Program-made: the position numbers and the translations under genes
The notes under the pieces: generated by a model
The model's input: the letters and a program-made list of their open reading frames with translations, nothing else
Told to the model about the DNA's origin: nothing
The model's database searches: none
Assembly: GCA_020148145.1 (NCBI GenBank)
Contig: JAHCRE010000016.1
Span: forward strand, 228,827-281,340
Length of the DNA: 52,514 bases
Reading direction: 5' to 3'
DNA from: Patescibacteria group bacterium
Lineage (GTDB): Bacteria > Patescibacteriota > Minisyncoccia > Minisyncoccales > JAHCRE01
Shown: piece by piece, positions 1 through 51,469 of the stretch
Layout of the letters: every line of letters starts with the position of its first letter
Numbering within the stretch: the first letter of the stretch is position 1

Positions 1-220
1 ATAGGCTGGAAGGTCGCTCCGCTCTCGAGGGGCCCGCCTGCGGGAGGGTGGCGGGAGGGTTGTAGTCTCGCCTTCGGCTCGAGCGCTCAGCCTTCGGCTT
101 TGCTTCGCCTCGCTCCTTAAAACCTTGCGGTTTTAATCTTTCCACCCTGGGGAAATACCCAGTTTCCCCATCGCTCTTTCTGAATTTTTGTTTCCCAAAA
201 ATTTAAAAACTCTCTGCAAC
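1..220 (-). ncRNA. Possible structured RNA or long leader, 5' part only
   Basis: A transcript started by the promoter at 226-254 would run leftward off the window. Its first 100 nt contain three successive perfect hairpins: 8-bp stem at 183-203 (loop GGAAA as read on minus), 7-bp stem at 149-169, and 8-bp stem at 117-136 closed by a GCAA tetraloop of the GNRA class. GC-rich repeat sequence follows. I see no convincing coding frame. It does not match the 5' ends of 16S, 23S, RNase P, SRP or tmRNA that I know. It could instead be the leader of a gene outside the window. Confidence 0.3.
23..70 (-). repeat. GC-rich dispersed element, GACTACAACCC family, copy 1
   Basis: Read on minus it has GACTACAACCC followed by C-rich sequence and a CCCGC/GCGGG hairpin, then GGGCCCCTC. 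Related copies are at 19519-19572, 38029-38071, 42224-42270 and 45143-45190. This copy lies in the putative RNA at the left edge and is flanked by further GC-rich palindromic sequence to about 118. Confidence 0.6.
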
Positions 221-18349: not shown

Positions 18350-18378
18350 TCTTTATCAAATTTTAAAAATTTTGTCAA
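18350..18378 (-). promoter_or_regulatory. Promoter of the CxxC mini-protein
   Basis: TTGACA (18373-18378), 17-nt spacer, TAAAGA (18350-18355). The -35 overlaps the TGA of the upstream gene. Confidence 0.6.
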
Positions 18379-19679
18379 CGTTCTATCAATTCTTTGGCCC
18401 TTTTGGTTGCTTTTTTAATAATTTCTTTTTCTCTTTCGATTTTTCTTTCCCTCATAATTGCTTTTCCATTGCAAATCATATCAGAGACACAATTTCCAGA
18501 GGCGGAATAAACAATATCTGAAATAAAATTGTGACCTGGCTTCAAACTAACTTGATTCAAATCAATTAAAATAAGGTCAGCTAACTTCCCTTCTTTAATT
18601 TTTCCAGTATTTATTTTTAAAGCTTTTGCTCCATTTTGAGTCGCTATTTTTATTACCTCTTTTGCCGGCAAAACTGTCGGATTTTTTTCTTGGTGCTTCT
18701 GCAAAAGACTAGCAGTTTTCATTTCTAAAAACATATCCAAACTATTATTTGAGGCTGGTCCATCTGTTCCCAAACAAACATTGACTTTATTTTCTTTAAA
18801 TTTTTTATAAGGGAAAATTTGACCTACTGCCAATTTTAAATTAGAACAAGGGTTATAAACGACACTACATTTTCTCTTTTTTAAAATTTCAATCTCTTTA
18901 TCGTTTAACCAAACTGAATGGACTAAAACACAATTTTTTCCTAAAAAGCCAATTTTTTCCAAATATTCAACTGGCCTTAGATGATATTTTTTCAAACAAT
19001 CTTTTATTTCTTTTTCAGTTTCTGAAAGATGGATATGTAAAATTAGATTATTTTTTTTAGCAAAATTTTTTACCCAAATTAAATTTTCTTTAGAAACAGT
19101 ATAAATTGAATGGGGGGTAACAGCCAATTTAATTAAATCTGATTTTTCTGACTTAAAATTTCGATATATTCTTTCAAAGTTTTTCAAACTTCCTCTTTCA
19201 TCAAAATCGATAATTAAGGGACCAACCACTGCTCTTATACCTATTTCTTTTGTGGCCTCAATTACTACTTCTGAATACCAATACATATCATTAAAAAAAG
19301 TTGTTCCGGTTTTTATCATCTCGAGGCAGGCTAATTTTGTTCCCCAATAAATGTCTTCTTCATTCAGTTTTTTTTCCAAAGGCCAGATTTTCTTTTCCAA
19401 CCAATCTTTTAAAGGCAAATCATCACCATATCCCCGAAAAAGAGTCATAGCAGCATGAGTATGACAATTAATTAAACCAGGAATTACCGCCTTTTCTCCT
19501 TTTCCATCAATTATAGAGGCCCGTTCCGAGCAAAGCGAGGAACGGGAGGATGCGGTGGGTGGGTTGTAGTCTTTTGCCTTAAAATTCAAATTTTTGCCAA
19601 TCTTTTTGATTTTTTTTCCCTCAATATAAATATCCTGTTTTTTTCCTTTTAAAATAATATTTTTGATTAAAAGGCTCAC
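18375..19679 (-). CDS. mtaD: S-adenosylhomocysteine / 5'-methylthioadenosine deaminase-type amidohydrolase
   Basis: 434 residues of the metal-dependent amidohydrolase superfamily, TrzN/MtaD/SSNA branch. Metal motifs: PGLINCHTHAAMTLFRG, HIHLSETEKE, a conserved His in VLVHSVWLND, and GTDGPASNNSLDMF. The closest functional type is SAH/MTA deaminase, which deaminates adenosine-containing by-products of methylation. A cytosine or guanine deaminase role is less likely. Around residues 36-56 a GC-rich element (19519-19572) encodes an insert (NPPTASSRSSLCSERAS) in the N-terminal beta-sandwich. The stop is 1 nt from tatD, so they share a transcript. Confidence 0.85.
   Translation of the reverse strand: MSLLIKNIILKGKKQDIYIEGKKIKKIGKNLNFKAKDYNPPTASSRSSLCSERASIIDGKGEKAVIPGLINCHTHAAMTLFRGYGDDLPLKDWLEKKIWPLEKKLNEEDIYWGTKLACLEMIKTGTTFFNDMYWYSEVVIEATKEIGIRAVVGPLIIDFDERGSLKNFERIYRNFKSEKSDLIKLAVTPHSIYTVSKENLIWVKNFAKKNNLILHIHLSETEKEIKDCLKKYHLRPVEYLEKIGFLGKNCVLVHSVWLNDKEIEILKKRKCSVVYNPCSNLKLAVGQIFPYKKFKENKVNVCLGTDGPASNNSLDMFLEMKTASLLQKHQEKNPTVLPAKEVIKIATQNGAKALKINTGKIKEGKLADLILIDLNQVSLKPGHNFISDIVYSASGNCVSDMICNGKAIMRERKIEREKEIIKKATKRAKELIER
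19519..19572 (-). repeat. GC-rich dispersed element, GACTACAACCC family, copy 2 (in mtaD)
   Basis: Read on minus: GACTACAACCCACCCACCG, then perfect 8-bp arms CCCGTTCC/GGAACGGG with a nested GAGC-AAAG-CGAG centre. It is in frame in the coding sequence. Confidence 0.75.
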
Positions 19680-19680
19680 T

Positions 19681-20565
19681 TTAATTTATTTTAAATAATT
19701 CTTTAGCATTTTTGGTTGTTATCTTAGCTACTTTTTTAAAATTTATATTTTTTATTTTGGCAATTTCTTGGGCAATATATTTCACATATAAAGGTTCATT
19801 TCTTTGATCTTTAAATTGAGGAGGCGAAAGATAAGGACAGTCGGTTTCAATCAAAATTTTCTCTAAAGGAGTTTTTTTAATTATTTCATCGAGATCTAAT
19901 TTAAAAATTATTCCATTAAAACCAAGGTAAAGTCCTATTTCTAAAAATTTTTGAGCCTGTTTCCAATTTCCGGTAAAACAATGAACCACTCCCGAGACCT
20001 GACCGCGATTTCTACGATCGTAGAAATCGCGGTCCTGATTGATTAAGATTTCTATTAAATCATGGTGGGCCATTCGGCAATGAAAAATTACTGGCAAGTT
20101 AAATTCTTTTGCTAGCTGCAATTGTTTTAAAAGTAAGTCTTTTTGTTTTTGAAAAAATAACTCTTTTTTTCTAGTAGTTTTGGGTTTCCAATAATAATCC
20201 AAGCCAATTTCGCCAATGGCAATTACTTTAGGTGACTTTACTAATTCCTTGTATTTTTCATAATCAAATTCTTTTTCAAAATGAACCCCCTCTCTTTCAC
20301 TTGCCCCGTGAGTTTTCTCTGAAAATTCTGCGGGGTCAACTTTTAATTTTATTAGGCCAGTATCTAAATTTATTGGATGAAGCCCAATAGCAGCATAGAT
20401 TCCTTTTTTATATCTCTCGGCAATCTCCAGGGCTTTTTTACTTGTTTGATAATTTGTCCCAATGTTTATTATCCAGGAATTGTGTTTCAAGCATCTTTTT
20501 ATAACTCCTTCTCTGTCTTTATCAAAAGCGGTGAAATTTAAATGGGCATGGGTATCAATTAACAT
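19681..20565 (-). CDS. tatD: TatD family metal-dependent DNase
   Basis: 294 residues; TatD proteins are usually about 255-265. Motifs: IDTHAHLNF, GLHP, IGEIGLDYYW, VIFHCRMAHHDLIE, VVHCFTGN and LIETDCPYLSPP. The family has 3'-5' exonuclease or D-aminoacyl-tRNA-type hydrolase activity. The extra length is explained by two in-frame palindromic elements: one encoding NQDRDFYDRRNRGQV (20001-20034) before VVHCFTG, and one encoding DPAEFSEKTHGASEREG (about 20290-20340) before the YYW region. The start overlaps the metG stop by 11 nt. Confidence 0.92.
   Translation of the reverse strand: MLIDTHAHLNFTAFDKDREGVIKRCLKHNSWIINIGTNYQTSKKALEIAERYKKGIYAAIGLHPINLDTGLIKLKVDPAEFSEKTHGASEREGVHFEKEFDYEKYKELVKSPKVIAIGEIGLDYYWKPKTTRKKELFFQKQKDLLLKQLQLAKEFNLPVIFHCRMAHHDLIEILINQDRDFYDRRNRGQVSGVVHCFTGNWKQAQKFLEIGLYLGFNGIIFKLDLDEIIKKTPLEKILIETDCPYLSPPQFKDQRNEPLYVKYIAQEIAKIKNINFKKVAKITTKNAKELFKIN
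20001..20034. repeat. Perfect 34-bp palindrome in tatD
   Basis: GACCGCGATTTCTACGA is followed directly by its exact reverse complement with no loop. It is in frame, encodes DRDFYDRRNRG, and is the longest perfect palindrome seen in the window. Confidence 0.85.
20303..20336. repeat. Second, imperfect palindromic insert in tatD
   Basis: CCCCG/CGGGG outer arms around an imperfect AGTTTTC/GAAAATT centre, in frame. Confidence 0.5.
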
Positions 20566-37662: not shown

Positions 37663-37938
37663 TCAAAGGGGTAAAATTTTACCCTTTTTTATTTTAATTC
37701 CTTCTCTTTTAAGTAAAATTATCTTTTTCCTTTTACCAAGATTATAGCCACCTACCTTTCCATTCGATTTTATTACTCGGTGGCAGGGAATTTTAAGATT
37801 TTTGTTTTTATTTAAAATGTTTCCGACCGCTCTCCAGGCCCTTGGCGAACCTGCTGTTTTAGCAACTTCGGCATAGGTCATAACTTTTCCTTTTGGAATC
37901 TTCTTAACAACTTTGAAAACTTTTTTCTCAAACCTCAT
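37663..37938 (-). CDS. MGMT/Ogt-type DNA-binding domain protein
   Basis: 91 residues corresponding to the C-terminal domain of O6-alkylguanine-DNA alkyltransferases. Helix-turn-helix with the arginine finger (VAKTAGSPRAWRAVGNILNKN) and the acceptor motif IPCHRVIKSNGKVGGY, so the reactive cysteine is kept, unlike alkyltransferase-like proteins, which have Trp there. It lacks the N-terminal ribonuclease-H-like domain. It probably repairs or flags alkylated guanine. The start overlaps the stop of the PP-loop gene by 4 nt, giving an operon with the Nudix and polX genes: a repair cluster. Confidence 0.9.
   Translation of the reverse strand: MRFEKKVFKVVKKIPKGKVMTYAEVAKTAGSPRAWRAVGNILNKNKNLKIPCHRVIKSNGKVGGYNLGKRKKIILLKREGIKIKKGKILPL
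37665..37690. terminator. Bidirectional terminator between rplT and the ogt-like gene
   Basis: AAAGGG-TAAAA/TTTTA-CCCTTT stem with one bulged G, then TTTTTT on plus and U-rich sequence on minus. It overlaps the last codons of the minus gene. Confidence 0.75.
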
Positions 37939-38912
37939 TTTACCTCAATTATTATTTCCTCGGGTATCTTTTTGGAATAATTTAATAAAAGCTCAGTGGC
38001 CCTAATAATTATTTCTTTTTTTATTTTAGGGGCCCGCCGAAGGCGGGAGGGTGGTGGGTGGGTTGGAGTCCCAAAGTCTCTAATCAAAACTGTTGGCCCT
38101 GGAAAATTTTCAGGTTCTAATATTAAATCTCCTCTTTTCTCAGATTTTCTTAATTCTTTATTTTCTTTTTCATTTCTTCCTACTAAAATTAAAAATTTAT
38201 TTTCTCCGCCTTCGGCAAGGCTTCGGCGGACGAGCCAAAAAACCCTTCCTTTTCTCAAAATCTGGGCATCATTTCCATCAAAATCTGGAAATTCTTTAAA
38301 AAGAATTTTTAATCTTTTTGAATATTGTGGGTCTGTTAAAATACAACCCCCAGCCGGACTAGGGAATTTTTTAATTTTAAATTTTTTGGCTAATTTAATT
38401 TGAGGTTTTCTTGATTTTCCTCGAATTGAAAATAACTTTTCTCTATTTACAAAATCTTTTTTTTCATAAATTGTTTCTGGCAATAATTTAGTAGAAAGTG
38501 GTCTTAAAATTTGATTTATGAGATTGGCCTCTTTTTCAATTAATTTAAATGTGCTTTTATTTTGGGAAAAAGGTCTTTCCCCTAAAACTTCACCAGTTGC
38601 CAAAATATCAAATTTCCCTTTTTTCATTATTTTTTTTGCTTCTTTAATCATTAATAAATGACAATCAATACAGGGATTAAAGCCTTTTCCATAACCGAAG
38701 CCGGGATTTTTTAAAATTTTCAAATGCTCTTTACTGAAATCGATAATTTTTAATTTCAATTTTAATTTTTTAGCCGATTTTTTAGCTAAACTACAATCAA
38801 AAAAATAACTTCTAAAACAAATTGGGGTAACTTTAATTTTCTGCTCCAATAAAATTTTTGCAGCTAAAATAGAATCCAATCCTCCAGAAAAAAGCAAAAG
38901 GCATTTTTTCAT
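37935..38912 (-). CDS. PP-loop ATPase, tRNA thiolation-like (ThiI/MnmA-related)
   Basis: 325 residues. An ATP-pyrophosphatase loop opens the protein (LLFSGGLDSILAAKIL), followed by NPCIDCHLLMIKEA (CxxC) and a conserved PSPAGGCILTDPQYS block. This architecture is shared with proteins annotated as tRNA 4-thiouridine or 2-thiouridine synthase-like, lacking THUMP and rhodanese domains. The exact modification is not certain. Two palindromic elements (38029-38071, 38205-38230) encode THPPPSRLRRAP and VRRSLAEGGEN in the C-terminal part, which is otherwise poorly conserved. It overlaps genes on both sides by 4 nt. Confidence 0.78.
   Translation of the reverse strand: MKKCLLLFSGGLDSILAAKILLEQKIKVTPICFRSYFFDCSLAKKSAKKLKLKLKIIDFSKEHLKILKNPGFGYGKGFNPCIDCHLLMIKEAKKIMKKGKFDILATGEVLGERPFSQNKSTFKLIEKEANLINQILRPLSTKLLPETIYEKKDFVNREKLFSIRGKSRKPQIKLAKKFKIKKFPSPAGGCILTDPQYSKRLKILFKEFPDFDGNDAQILRKGRVFWLVRRSLAEGGENKFLILVGRNEKENKELRKSEKRGDLILEPENFPGPTVLIRDFGTPTHPPPSRLRRAPKIKKEIIIRATELLLNYSKKIPEEIIIEVK
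38029..38071 (-). repeat. GC-rich dispersed element, GACTACAACCC family, copy 3 (in PP-loop gene)
   Basis: Read on minus: GACTCCAACCCACCCACC, then CCCGCC-TTC-GGCGGG hairpin and GCCCC. It is nearly identical to the copy at 45143-45190 but lies in coding sequence. Confidence 0.75.
38205..38230. repeat. Second palindrome in the PP-loop gene
   Basis: TCCGCC/GGCGGA arms with a CTTCGG-type centre. It encodes LAEGGEN. Confidence 0.6.
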
Positions 38913-39322
38913 AAATTTTTTAAAAAATTATTTGCTTTTTCTAAAACTTCTTTTGCATTTTTAAAAGTAAGCTGCTCTAAAGCTTCCTCATAAGGTAGCC
39001 ACTTGTATCCAATATGCTCAAAAGATGTTCTAACCTCTTTTGTTTTTGTTTCTGCTAAATAAAATGTAACAATCTTAAAAATTGTTTTGTCTTTTAATTT
39101 AAAAAAATATTTTATATTTTCTTTAAATCCAGGAGTAAATTCGATATCTTCAATTCCAGTTTCTTCTTTAATCTCACGCCTAGCTGTATCTTGGGGTTTT
39201 TCATCTCTGTTAATAACCCCTTTGGGGAAACTCCACCCAGCTTGAGATTCTAATAAAAGATAATAGGTTTTATTTCTTTCTTGGCGGAAAATTACTGCTC
39301 CGGCTGATTTCTCAAATGGCAT
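38909..39322 (-). CDS. Nudix hydrolase, Ap4A-hydrolase-like
   Basis: 137 residues. The Nudix box GVINRDEKPQDTARREIKEETGIED follows WSFPKG, the pattern of asymmetrical diadenosine-tetraphosphate hydrolases. The N-terminal AGAVIFRQERNKTYYLLLESQAG and the Tyr-rich KYFFKLKDKTIFKIVTFYLAE agree. The likely role is cleaving Ap4A or similar signalling or damaged nucleotides. It overlaps the PP-loop gene by 4 nt and follows polX by 3 nt. No divergence in key Glu residues. Confidence 0.88.
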   Translation of the reverse strand: MPFEKSAGAVIFRQERNKTYYLLLESQAGWSFPKGVINRDEKPQDTARREIKEETGIEDIEFTPGFKENIKYFFKLKDKTIFKIVTFYLAETKTKEVRTSFEHIGYKWLPYEEALEQLTFKNAKEVLEKANNFLKNL

Positions 39323-42213: not shown

Positions 42214-42276
42214 AAAAAGCCCGAGACTACAATCCACCCACCTCTTTCCCGTAGGTGGATCCCTAAACTCTCGGGT
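42214..42276 (-). terminator. Terminator with GC-rich element in its loop (GACTACAACCC family, copy 4)
   Basis: Outer stem CCCGAGA/TCTCGGG (42220-42226 with 42269-42275), followed on minus by CTTTTTAT. The loop contains GACTACAATCCACCC and a CCACCT/AGGTGG stem. It ends the Cys-rich gene at 42339. Confidence 0.75.
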
Positions 42277-42338
42277 AGTAGATCTGGGGGCTGGAGGATA
42301 TTAGAATCTCTCTTTAGTAGAATCTTTCTTTAATTTAA

Positions 42339-42599
42339 TTACTGTGTAGGAATATAAGGCGCGCAAGCTGGCACTTGGCTAAGGGCGGTTAACGCATCTT
42401 GGCATGCTTGAGCTACAGCCGTGCACTCATCTAATCCAGCCTTATACTGATCTAATCCCGCTCCGCACTCTTTCAATTTAGCTCCTAAATCTGTTGCTGT
42501 TGCCTTGCATTCCATTGCACCAGAGTATAAATTATAAGTGAAAACTGCCAAAATAATCAATACCAGAATTAAAATAACTATTACAATATCTTTTGCCAC
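42339..42599 (-). CDS. Small membrane-anchored Cys-rich protein
   Basis: 86 residues. An N-terminal hydrophobic helix (IVIVILILVLIILAVFTYNLY) is followed by an external segment with five cysteines (ECKATA, KECGAG, DECTA, QACQDA, PACAPY) in a roughly regular spacing of 8-14, suggesting disulfides outside the membrane. The start is GTG. The signal could be a cleaved or an uncleaved anchor; no lipobox is evident. I do not recognise a family. It is a single-gene unit with its own terminator. Confidence 0.65.
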   Translation of the reverse strand: MAKDIVIVILILVLIILAVFTYNLYSGAMECKATATDLGAKLKECGAGLDQYKAGLDECTAVAQACQDALTALSQVPACAPYIPTQ

Positions 42600-42681
42600 C
42601 GTTTTTAATTTCTTTTTTAATATTAAAAAAACTTTATCGATCTTTAATATTTATTTTAACTTATTTACCGCTAAAACAAAA

Positions 42682-42702
42682 CCCCGAGAAAAACCCTCGG
42701 GG
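42682..42702 (-). terminator. Terminator of the PAS gene (CCCGAG-GTTTTT-CTCGGG type)
   Basis: Perfect 7-bp stem CCCCGAG/CTCGGGG. On minus it is followed by TTTTGTTTT. The same sequence type recurs at 43448, 45665 and 47630. Confidence 0.85.
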
Positions 42703-42757
42703 CGGCGTGGATGATATTACCTGTCCTCCGTAATCTTAATGAAGGAAGAGAACCTAT

Positions 42758-43339
42758 TTAGCCTTTCTCTGATTTTTTTTCTAGTTCCTCAATCTTCTTT
42801 TTTAATTCAATCATCTTCAGTTCCCTCCCCACCGCTAATTTATGAAATCTTTCAAGTTCTTCGTTTTTCTTTCTTAATTCTTCTTCGACCCTCTTGCGCT
42901 CGGTGATGTCACGGGCACTTCCTAAAACTAAAATTCGGCCCTTAAATCTTACTATATTTCCAGTGACCTCTGTTAGAACTCGACTGCCGTCTTTCCTAAT
43001 TAGTTCTATCTCCTCAGCTCCCACAGATTTACCCAAGGCATGTTGAACTAAACGCTTAGCTACTTTCGGGATCTGATCCTTAGGTAGAATTTTTGCCCTC
43101 AACATATTCTTTCCAATTAATTCTTCCTTTTTGTAGCCAATTATTTTTTCTGCGGCTTTATTACTGTCAATAAAGTTTCCCTTTAGATCGTTCAGAAAAT
43201 AGCCGTCTGGTGCGTTTTCAAATAATATCTTAAGTAGCTCCTGTGATTCCTTGAGCTTTTTCTCTATATCTTTTTGTTTGGCAAGTTGTTCTTCAAGTTC
43301 TTTTATCTTTTTATTTAATTGATCTATTTTTTTATCCAT
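42758..43339 (-). CDS. PAS-domain protein flanked by coiled coils
   Basis: 193 residues. A coiled coil (1-38, Lys/Glu heptads) leads to a PAS domain (about 40-150: LFENAPDGYFLNDLKGNFIDSNKAAEKIIGYKKEELIGKN and LGSARDITERKRVEEEL, the PAC end), then a second coiled coil (152-193). No kinase, cyclase or other output domain is present, so it probably acts as a stand-alone sensor that changes dimer state or binds a partner. No two-component genes are nearby. A ligand (heme, flavin) cannot be told from sequence alone. Confidence 0.88.
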   Translation of the reverse strand: MDKKIDQLNKKIKELEEQLAKQKDIEKKLKESQELLKILFENAPDGYFLNDLKGNFIDSNKAAEKIIGYKKEELIGKNMLRAKILPKDQIPKVAKRLVQHALGKSVGAEEIELIRKDGSRVLTEVTGNIVRFKGRILVLGSARDITERKRVEEELRKKNEELERFHKLAVGRELKMIELKKKIEELEKKSEKG

Positions 43340-43447
43340 AAGAATATTTTTCTAAATATTTAGATATTTGATATTAGAATTCTAAAAACTAAAGATGATT
43401 AGATGAAGCCTTTATTTAATTATACTCCATAATTGCGAAATAAAAAA

Positions 43448-43466
43448 CCCGAGAAAAACTCTCAGG
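43448..43466 (-). terminator. Terminator of 43579-44322
   Basis: CCTGAGA-GTTTT-TCTCGGG on minus with one G-U pair, followed by TTTTTTATTT. Confidence 0.85.
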
Positions 43467-43578
43467 CGGGAATAACTCGCCCTAGTGGATAATGTTAGAG
43501 CTAGTTTAATAGAATTACTTACTCCAGAAATCAAAAATCAAAAAGGATTTAGTTGAAAATTTCATAAAATTAACCTTC

Positions 43579-44322
43579 CTATCCAGCACAGGACTCCTCT
43601 ATCTCATCTAAAAAAATTCCATCTATTTTATTTTTAATTGGATCAATGATTATAGCTCCTTGAAAGATATTAAGGCATATTGAACCAAGCTTCTCCCAGC
43701 TTTCAACCCCGCTCCCATGTATCGCTACTACAAGTTTAGGTCTAAAAGGAATCCACTCATAGCTAAATCTGGTGAATTTTTCTCCATAAAAACCTAAACA
43801 CGCTGTTAATTTGATTGGTTCTCCTTCTCTTTCTTTATTAATAAAATCCTCTATTTTTGGACAAACAGAAGAAAGCTGGCCTGCAATATCTTTTATTTCT
43901 TTTCCTTCATATATAATTTCATGTCCAAGTATTTCTGCGTCACTACAAGTATCTTCTTTTACCTTGATTATTTTAGCTTTTGCCTCAATTACTGAATCTT
44001 CAGGAACATCTATTTTTTCTTTAAAACAAATACTATTCTGTGGCCACCTAATGCTTTTACCCCAATAAGCGCCTTCTACCCACATAGTTTCATTCTCTTC
44101 TAGTGAGATTAAATATGTGGCCGGGATATCCATGAATTGTGTTGGATAAATCTGGACACCTGGTTCCGATACTTGATAAACAGGAATTCCATTAATTTCT
44201 CCGGCTACTGGAGGCGGGATATAAGGAGTTCTTCTATTCGCCATCCACCACTGCAAAAATAAAATCCCTCCAACAATAAGGAGAATTAAAATCACTAAAC
44301 TTAAGACGTATTTAAAATTCAT
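43579..44322 (-). CDS. Membrane-anchored protein, unknown function
   Basis: 247 residues. An N-terminal transmembrane segment (VLSLVILILLIVGGILFLQWW) is followed by a Pro-rich linker (TPYIPPPVAGEI) and an extracytoplasmic domain rich in beta strands, with six Cys (FKEKI-preceding C, DTCSD, SSVCPK, TACLG, GSICLN, EESCAG) that may form disulfides. No known motif. The gene is flanked by intergenic repeats on both sides and stands alone. I do not recognise the family. Confidence 0.65.
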   Translation of the reverse strand: MNFKYVLSLVILILLIVGGILFLQWWMANRRTPYIPPPVAGEINGIPVYQVSEPGVQIYPTQFMDIPATYLISLEENETMWVEGAYWGKSIRWPQNSICFKEKIDVPEDSVIEAKAKIIKVKEDTCSDAEILGHEIIYEGKEIKDIAGQLSSVCPKIEDFINKEREGEPIKLTACLGFYGEKFTRFSYEWIPFRPKLVVAIHGSGVESWEKLGSICLNIFQGAIIIDPIKNKIDGIFLDEIEESCAG

Positions 44323-44477
44323 AATCTATATTTGTTATTTTTTCCTTAACGACCTGTCATTTTTATATTATCACCAAAAAATTTTTTAAGCAACCGAGTC
44401 TCGGGAAAAACTCTCAGGATGGGGACTCCCCTTATACGACGATTGGATGCTGCTTTTTAGGATAATCACTATTTGAA

Positions 44478-45076
44478 TTACCACTTTACCAAAAATTCAT
44501 GATATTCGTTGTCTCGGTGAACACATTTTATCTCTTCACAGATTACTGGCTTTCCTATTGCCACCTAGAAAGTGCTAGAAAGAAATCCTATGATAGTGTG
44601 ACATATAATTGGATAAGTCTTAAAATTTTCAATCCTTAAAGTCACAGATTTTTTTCTTGATTGCGCTCTACTATTTTAAGATCTCCGATAGAAAAATACT
44701 TCCGCCACATCTTTGGAGCTTCTTTAAGTAATTTCTCCAGAGAAACAAAATATTTCAGAAAGATTCTAATAATTATAGAAGACTTAGATTCAAATTCTCC
44801 CATTTCCTGAAACTTTTTATCATCAAAGTTAAAAAGTCTTTTACTAATTAATAGAGTAAGAGTAGTAAGGTGCAAAGGATAATAATCCGTTGATTTTATT
44901 TTTCTATAATTGATTGGGTAACCAAGCTTTGTCATTGCATCTCTTACTTTTTTCATTCCCTCTTCCCCCTTTTCTTTGACAAGATATTCTCTTGCAGCCT
45001 TAATTATTCTCCCACTTATCTCTCCTTTTATCTTCATCAATTCATTAATTTCTTCTTTTGAAACTATTTGTTCCAT
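44478..45076 (-). pseudogene. Decayed paralogue of the V4R-like gene at 46233
   Basis: The frame 44642-45076 (144 residues) matches the first 145 residues of the 46233-46844 protein: same start EEI-MKIKGE, LGYPINYRKIKSTDYYPLHL against LGYPIKYKEMKAMGFHPIGL, FNFDDKKFQEMGEFESK against FNFDDEKIKELGTFGSK. It then stops. Homology continues in a second frame (VTLRIENFKTYPIICHTIIGFL, matching AILRLENFNLHPIFCCFLGGYF) and in a third (KPVICEEIKCVHRDNEYHEFLVKW, matching QITFEETKCTFRGDEYHEYLLKW), ending at a TAA at 44478. At least two frameshifts have therefore broken it. Possible function as a truncated 144-residue protein cannot be excluded. Confidence 0.8.
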
Positions 45077-45139
45077 AATTTTTCCTAATAAAAATACTAT
45101 ATTACTATTTTAGCAAAAATATTCTAAAAATTAAACCCA

Positions 45140-45194
45140 CGAGACTACAACCCACCCACCACCCTCCCGCCTTCGGCGGGCCCCTAAACTCTCG
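45140..45194 (-). repeat. GC-rich dispersed element, GACTACAACCC family, copy 5
   Basis: Outer CGAGA/TCTCG stem (45140-45144 with 45190-45194), with the GACTACAACCCACCCACC sequence and CCCGCC-TTC-GGCGGG hairpin (45166-45180) in the loop. It has the same layout as 42214-42276 but lies upstream of the pseudogene. Confidence 0.75.
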
Positions 45195-48125: not shown

Positions 48126-48146
48126 GCCCTGAGCTTGTCGAAGGGC
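48126..48146. repeat. GTCGAAGGG-type palindromic element
   Basis: GCCCT/AGGGC arms around GAGCTTGTCGA. It interrupts an AAATTTCCCT|CAACTTCG unit that is continuous at 51401-51418. Confidence 0.7.
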
Positions 48147-48159
48147 TCAACTTCGGCTC

Positions 48160-48187
48160 GCCGTCCGGAGCTTTAGCGAAGGACGGC
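48160..48187. repeat. GCCGTCC-type palindromic element, copy 1
   Basis: Perfect 7-bp arms GCCGTCC/GGACGGC around GGAGCTTTAGCGAA. It is identical to 51423-51450, and both are inserted in AACTTCG|CTAAATTTT units. Confidence 0.75.
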
Positions 48188-48201
48188 CTAAATTTTGTCG
48201 A

Positions 48202-51370: not shown

Positions 51371-51422
51371 GTAAAATTTTCGTATAAATCAACTCAAATT
51401 AAATTTCCCTCAATTTCGGCTC

Positions 51423-51450
51423 GCCGTCCGGAGCTTTAGCGAAGGACGGC
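51423..51450. repeat. GCCGTCC-type palindromic element, copy 2
   Basis: Identical to 48160-48187. It lies in an AAATTTCCCTCAATTTCG|CTAAATTTTT unit and splits it cleanly. Confidence 0.75.
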
Positions 51451-51469
51451 CTAAATTTTTGTTTAAATT

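Follow-up and report, generated by a model that had tools for sequence, protein, structure and literature searches.

The window, by which we mean the whole 52,514-nt stretch of Patescibacteria DNA analysed here, carries copies of a short sequence, the GACTACAACCC element, within an mtaD-like deaminase gene and a PP-loop gene, in a repeat cluster at its left edge and in the loops of terminator-like hairpins. The relevant features are listed below, with A-type and G-type denoting the two subtypes of the element and ^ the point of insertion.

29..65, minus strand: A-type copy within the left-edge repeat cluster
19516..19569, minus strand: A-type copy, 54 nt long, lying in the sense orientation and reading frame of the mtaD-like deaminase gene (ORF 18378-19685, minus strand)
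38029..38068, minus strand: G-type copy (GGA^CTCC), likewise in-frame and sense-oriented, within the PP-loop gene (ORF 37938-38927, minus strand)
42214..42276, plus strand: terminator-like hairpin CCCGAGA...TCTCGGG whose loop holds a diverged copy of the element; the T-run lies on the minus strand
42227..42263, plus strand: A-type copy GACTACAATCC, CTACAATCC...GGATCCC, after the target AGA; one mismatch to the motif given by the sequence-only reading
42682..42700, plus strand: empty terminator with the same GAGA stem, CCCCGAGAAAAACCCTCGG, which serves as a model of the empty site
43448..43465, plus strand: empty terminator with the same GAGA stem, CCCGAGAAAAACTCTCAG
45140..45194, plus strand: terminator-like hairpin CGAGA...TCTCG whose loop holds a consensus copy of the element
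45145..45184, plus strand: A-type consensus copy CTACAACCCACCCACCACCCTCCCGCCTTCGGCGGGCCCC, after AGA

The two element-enclosing hairpins (42214-42276 and 45140-45194) are present as an earlier, sequence-only reading of this DNA had described them, as are the element-free terminators of the same stem that it had placed at 42682 and 43448, and the further copies it had reported in mtaD, the PP-loop gene and the left-edge repeat were all located. Its proposal that the element enters both coding sequence and terminator loops is borne out, the element being dispersed, hairpin-bearing and presumably mobile. The window additionally contains a 51-nt repeat (CTCAACTTCGGCTCGCCGTCCGGAGC...) at 48146-48196 and 51409-51459, the two occurrences being 98% identical, and six terminator-like repeats (ACCAAGAAATCGCC...GGCGAT) between 47125 and 52478.

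Searches of this 809-kb, 26-contig Patescibacteria genome and its relatives revealed that the GACTACAACCC element is a dispersed family rather than a single-locus motif. With GACTACAACCCACC as the pattern and at most 2 mismatches allowed, 31 matches were recovered in the 809-kb genome, as against 1 for the reversed control. A longer pattern, for which control matches were near 0, detected the element in 18 of 100 relatives from the order, with a patchy distribution, and the copies per genome ranged from 8 to 27 in G000, G001, G002, G016, G030 and G048. When 85,000 named species genomes were queried with a 26-letter pattern, 33 stretches were matched, all from Patescibacteria and chiefly from Ca. 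Nealsonbacteria. The viral contigs that we searched yielded 0 matches, comparison with Rfam placed no family on the element, and the literature that was searched contains no mention of its peptide or DNA motif. Combining 80 fetched stretches with the loci from these searches gave a set of 133 distinct copies, 98 of which have a clear right end. Given that the copies were picked by pattern, positions inside it look somewhat more conserved than they are; the target base x (of xGA) was absent from every search pattern, and M (A or C) was permitted at base 3 of the element.

The element is 36-60 nt long and conforms to the consensus RGA^CT[A/C]CAACCC.CCC.CC.CCCT-hairpin-CCCC(T). Along the C-rich strand the target RGA is followed by CT[A/C]CAACCC.CCC.CC.C(C or AT)CCT, a hairpin of the form CCCn..n'GGG, and then CCCC and usually T. 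The C-rich left end (CTyCAACCC) is constant throughout the 133 copies, and the right end is formed by the hairpin, with freely varying yet paired arms, and the CCCC(T) beyond it. At pair 4 of the hairpin, for example, we counted G-C 43 times, A-T 28 times, C-G 8 times and T-A 3 times; this co-variation of the arms indicates that the hairpin is maintained as a structure. Two subtypes can be distinguished, namely an A-type with an AGA target and A at position y, and a G-type with a GGA target and C at that position. Some copies comprise the left part without the hairpin, and their ends often share the pattern CCC..CAAGG. In 61 of the 98 full copies the complement fits the G-quadruplex pattern GGGAGGGTGGTGGGTGGG, the G runs being conserved and the linkers variable; an obligatory G-quadruplex was rejected, as just these 61 copies match.

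Empty homologous loci, nested copies and repeat arrays all place the insertion directly 3' of a pre-existing RGA, in either orientation relative to genes, and every well-resolved insertion site is an RGA. The empty site AAGA^AAAAGTTACC (L170; AAGA^AAAA) corresponds to the filled site AAGA[42]TAAAATTGCC (L097), and the empty TTGGA^TATT (L119) to the filled TTGGA[39]TTTT (L080), with further filled/empty pairs in L077/L024, L035/L128 and, for NifS, L095/L014. In terminators, the empty CCCCGAGA^AAAACTCTCGGG is matched by the filled CCCCGAGA[..]TAAACTCTCGGG (pairs L005/L029 and L006/L005), and other terminator copies have the right junction TAAACTCTCGGG in common. The nested copies L031, L049, L070 and L071 (GGGA^GGG) and the GGAATTTGG-type arrays of L064, L079 and L094 agree on insertion after a pre-existing RGA. 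The right junction is imprecise, in that the base after GA often becomes T and 0-3 nt may be lost, and duplication of the target was not above control overall. Two hairpin-less copies with the CCC..CAAGG end, L014 (NifS) and L114 (ValRS), apparently adjoin an 11-14-nt duplication, now diverged, of the upstream target, the duplications reading KIYLD/KIYMD and DVLD/DVLD. The arrays and nested copies had also suggested that inserts have lengths divisible by 3 in every case, including those outside genes, a rule that we dropped because the boundaries can be placed only to within 0-2 nt and certain non-coding copies depart from it.

The target base at -3 is tied to the element base at +3, the combinations being A/A in 84 copies, G/C in 31, A/C in 2 and G/A in 0 (Fisher P=3e-26). 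The mutual information of this pair of positions is 0.79 bits, as against 0.02 after shuffling and 0.23 for the next best pair. Since both subtypes are present in each of the seven richest genomes, the coupling is not a lineage effect. This behaviour bears on whether transposition needs to be invoked at all, as the copies might have been spread by recombination or by microhomology-mediated template switching during replication. The very small size of the element, the failure to find an enzyme, the microhomology at the xGA junction and the imprecise right end are all consistent with such a process, and the terminator copies could be products of conversion. However, the left junction is always GA^CT even though the element offers other microhomologies (CCC, ACC), and each of the two subtypes has its own target in all of the rich genomes; we consider spread of this kind unlikely.

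The sequence-only reading had further suggested that insertion is guided by structure rather than sequence, which would recall group IIC-type target choice, and had called for a survey of insertion sites. At 63 coding sites the flanking stem of the empty site was no better than that at RGA sites drawn at random (means of 7.5 and 7.7, respectively; P=0.84), and here the survey lent no support to a preference for hairpins. A part of the suggestion did stand outside genes, with strong stems at 5 of 35 non-coding sites as opposed to 8 of 267 controls (P=0.01), an excess that largely reflects one family of terminators whose stem ends in GAGA. This genome (G000) has about 50 near-identical GAGA-stem terminators (CCGAGAAAAACTCTCGG), including 22 exact copies, which themselves resemble a dispersed family. 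The element is found in 8 of the GAGA terminators of this genome, where far fewer than 1 would be expected from the approximately 58,500 RGA sites in the genome, a figure scaled from the window. Four of the 8 have the same nested 42-nt insert within unrelated outer flanks, which implies either that terminators are favoured or that conversion among terminators spread the copies; conversion between these near-identical sequences may have multiplied some of the copies in terminators. The nested insert is a GC-rich palindrome (AAGGACGGGGCGTTTCGC...GCGTCCCGACC) seen in L002, L003, L005 and L018 (G000:C16 31.3k, 42.1k, 188.6k, 25.6k). Inverted repeats also flank the copies L084 and L098. Insertion into hairpin loops could account for these repeats, the non-coding stem excess and the 8 terminator copies. 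As a general rule it is contradicted by the coding sites, the RGA sequence together with the -3/+3 coupling accounts for the target, and conversion is possible for the four copies with a common nested insert, leaving structure-directed insertion a very improbable explanation. The target is a sequence and not a hairpin structure. Entry into terminator loops would be due to the GAGA at the end of their 5' arm and to the loop's tolerance of an insertion.

Most copies lie within open genes, to which they add about 14 residues. Among the 90 copies in clear ORFs, 77 are in the sense and 13 in the antisense orientation, an excess that can be explained if selection acts against the peptide encoded by antisense copies or against G-rich mRNA, and that is not evidence of a bias in insertion. 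In NifS the insert appears as a clean 14-residue gap in the comparison with solved homologues, and in-frame inserts opposite gaps in solved homologues were also observed in uL3, ValRS and RpoC, the RpoC copy being antisense and situated inside a GGATTTTGG array. Other host genes include RecA, SerRS and GatB. The PP-loop gene of the relative G002 is devoid of the insertion seen in the window but has others elsewhere. The phase of insertion that gives DYNPP accounts for 65% of cases, compared with 44% for random RGA sites in the same ORFs, a skew that is expected if the peptides differ in how well they are tolerated. Translational bypass or removal of the insert from the RNA is superfluous, given that the reading frame stays open through the coding copies, whichever of the three frames they occupy. 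Insertions that keep the frame probably persist, with the coding copies translated as Pro-rich inserts and the sense excess arising from selection. Several further observations concern particular sites. The GGATTTTGG/GGAATTTGG repeat arrays, which occur in frame in essential genes as well as near genes, are favoured landing sites of the G-type (L094 in GatB, L118 in RpoC, L064 and L079). In L041 and L046 the same gene from two families contains the element at sites separated by about 7 residues, and the hairpin is the same in both; this suggests that this region of the gene is tolerant or favoured. In L065 and L090 the element is located in the D-arm of 5' parts of tRNA genes, and in L065 the 3' part of apparently the same tRNA was found past a second, intact tRNA gene.

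A mobilising enzyme was sought by domain searches. The genome has 0 genes for Y1 transposases (TnpA-REP/RAYT), Y1 genes showed no co-occurrence with the element among the 100 relatives (6 of 9 rich vs 46 of 91 other genomes, P=0.49), and none of the rich relatives that were examined has element copies flanking RAYT-like genes; the REP/RAYT-type target choice envisaged by the sequence-only reading is not supported by these results. In the 20 genomes that were checked, Y2_Tnp is present in 1 and does not track the element, and neither does TnpB, of which there is none in the genome itself. The RVT_1 domain gave no match in this genome or in the rich relatives G001, G016, G030 and G038, and its absence from the genome and most of the rich relatives argues against the group IIC-type insertion that had been proposed as well.

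The same searches bear on target-primed reverse transcription, whereby a small G-rich RNA, corresponding to the complement strand with a 3' end ...GUUGUAGUCU or ...GUUGGAGUCC, would pair with a nicked xGA target and be copied onward to leave a left end that is constant and a right end that varies. Such a process would fit the two ends as observed, the copies that have the left part but no hairpin, the match of the target to the family-specific end over 3 nt, and the possible 11-14-nt duplications in L014 and L114. Against it, RVT_1 is unmatched in the five genomes named above, the hairpin-less copies often end in CCC..CAAGG and so are not random truncations, and duplication is not general; we judge it rather improbable.

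With moderate confidence, we interpret the GACTACAACCC element as a tiny non-autonomous insertion element of Nealsonbacteria-type Patescibacteria, which would be inserted as a single strand in a guide-like manner and whose in-frame copies persist. The target may be chosen through contact or pairing of the target base with the left end of the element, by analogy with single-strand (HUH-type) transposition, in which the cleavage site is picked by a guide that the element itself carries. In IS608 a guide within the element selects the target (PMC5934647), and for TnpA-REP the published rule is that GTAG selects CT or CA and GTGG selects CC (PMC8266576). Read on the complement strand, the A-type gives GTAG-T-CT and the G-type GGAG-T-CC, which fits the TnpA-REP rule. 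Counting against single-strand insertion are the failure of HUH genes to track the element, the imprecision of the right junction by 0-3 nt, unlike in IS608, the position of the covarying base, which is 3 nt away from the junction and separated by about 18 nt from the hairpin instead of adjoining its foot as in IS608 and REPs, and the apparent 11-14-nt duplications of L014 and L114, which single-strand insertion would not make. More tentatively, the elements could constitute a family unique to Patescibacteria in which the element's own base 3 acts as a one-base guide dictating the trinucleotide entered, and which, by means of an enzyme of unrecognised type, repeatedly adds short peptides to essential proteins.

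The in-frame invasion of essential genes by tiny hairpin elements is best known from Rickettsia, and the present family constitutes a parallel case in another phylum, in small-genome and probably host-dependent bacteria. Its signature is much sharper than that of the Rickettsia case, with a fixed trinucleotide target, two subtypes and a one-base code between target and element. Nested copies and orthologous empty sites define the junctions to near base level, making the mechanism, a question since 2000, directly testable. It should also be cautioned that many Nealsonbacteria proteins contain foreign inserts of 12-18 residues.

The Rickettsia palindromic elements (RPEs) were reportedly described by Ogata et al. 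in 2000. They are small, non-autonomous hairpin repeats of ~150 bp, found in frame in unrelated and often essential protein genes as well as between genes (PMC10969869). The present elements are likewise non-autonomous hairpin repeats found in the reading frame of unrelated protein genes and in intergenic positions too, but they are 36-60 nt long and asymmetric, with a C-rich left arm and one hairpin, have a strict RGA target with base coupling, and reside in Patescibacteria. REPs are 20-40-nt hairpin elements mobilised by TnpA-REP/RAYT, and some of them lie in genes (PMC3733652, PMC8266576). Our elements resemble them in the short palindrome with compensatory changes in its arms, in the many copies per genome (tens, fewer than is typical of REPs), in a tetranucleotide-like tag (GTAG on the A-type complement) and in a CT/CC step fitting the cross-complementarity rule. 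They differ from REPs in having GTAG or GGAG about 18 nt from the hairpin instead of a GTAG/CGTC tag at the foot of the palindrome, in the want of a Y1 gene, be it in the genome (0) or, among the rich relatives examined, flanked by the repeats, and in the location of their copies, which are mostly inside genes and not intergenic. As in the IS200/IS605 family (IS608), there is no target duplication, insertion occurs 3' of a short fixed target that is kept at the left flank, the choice of target is tied to a base of the left end, and a subterminal hairpin is present. Unlike in that family, the right junction varies by 0-3 nt in place of a precise end that has a cleavage site and guide of its own, TnpA (Y1) and TnpB are absent from the genome, the element has one hairpin only, and the base tied to the target is 3 nt away from the junction instead of at the foot of the hairpin. 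Group IIC introns combine an RT/maturase with insertion at terminator structures, in contrast to which the genome has no RVT_1 and the sites follow sequence. Taken together, the elements most resemble the RPEs in behaviour and the REPs in build.
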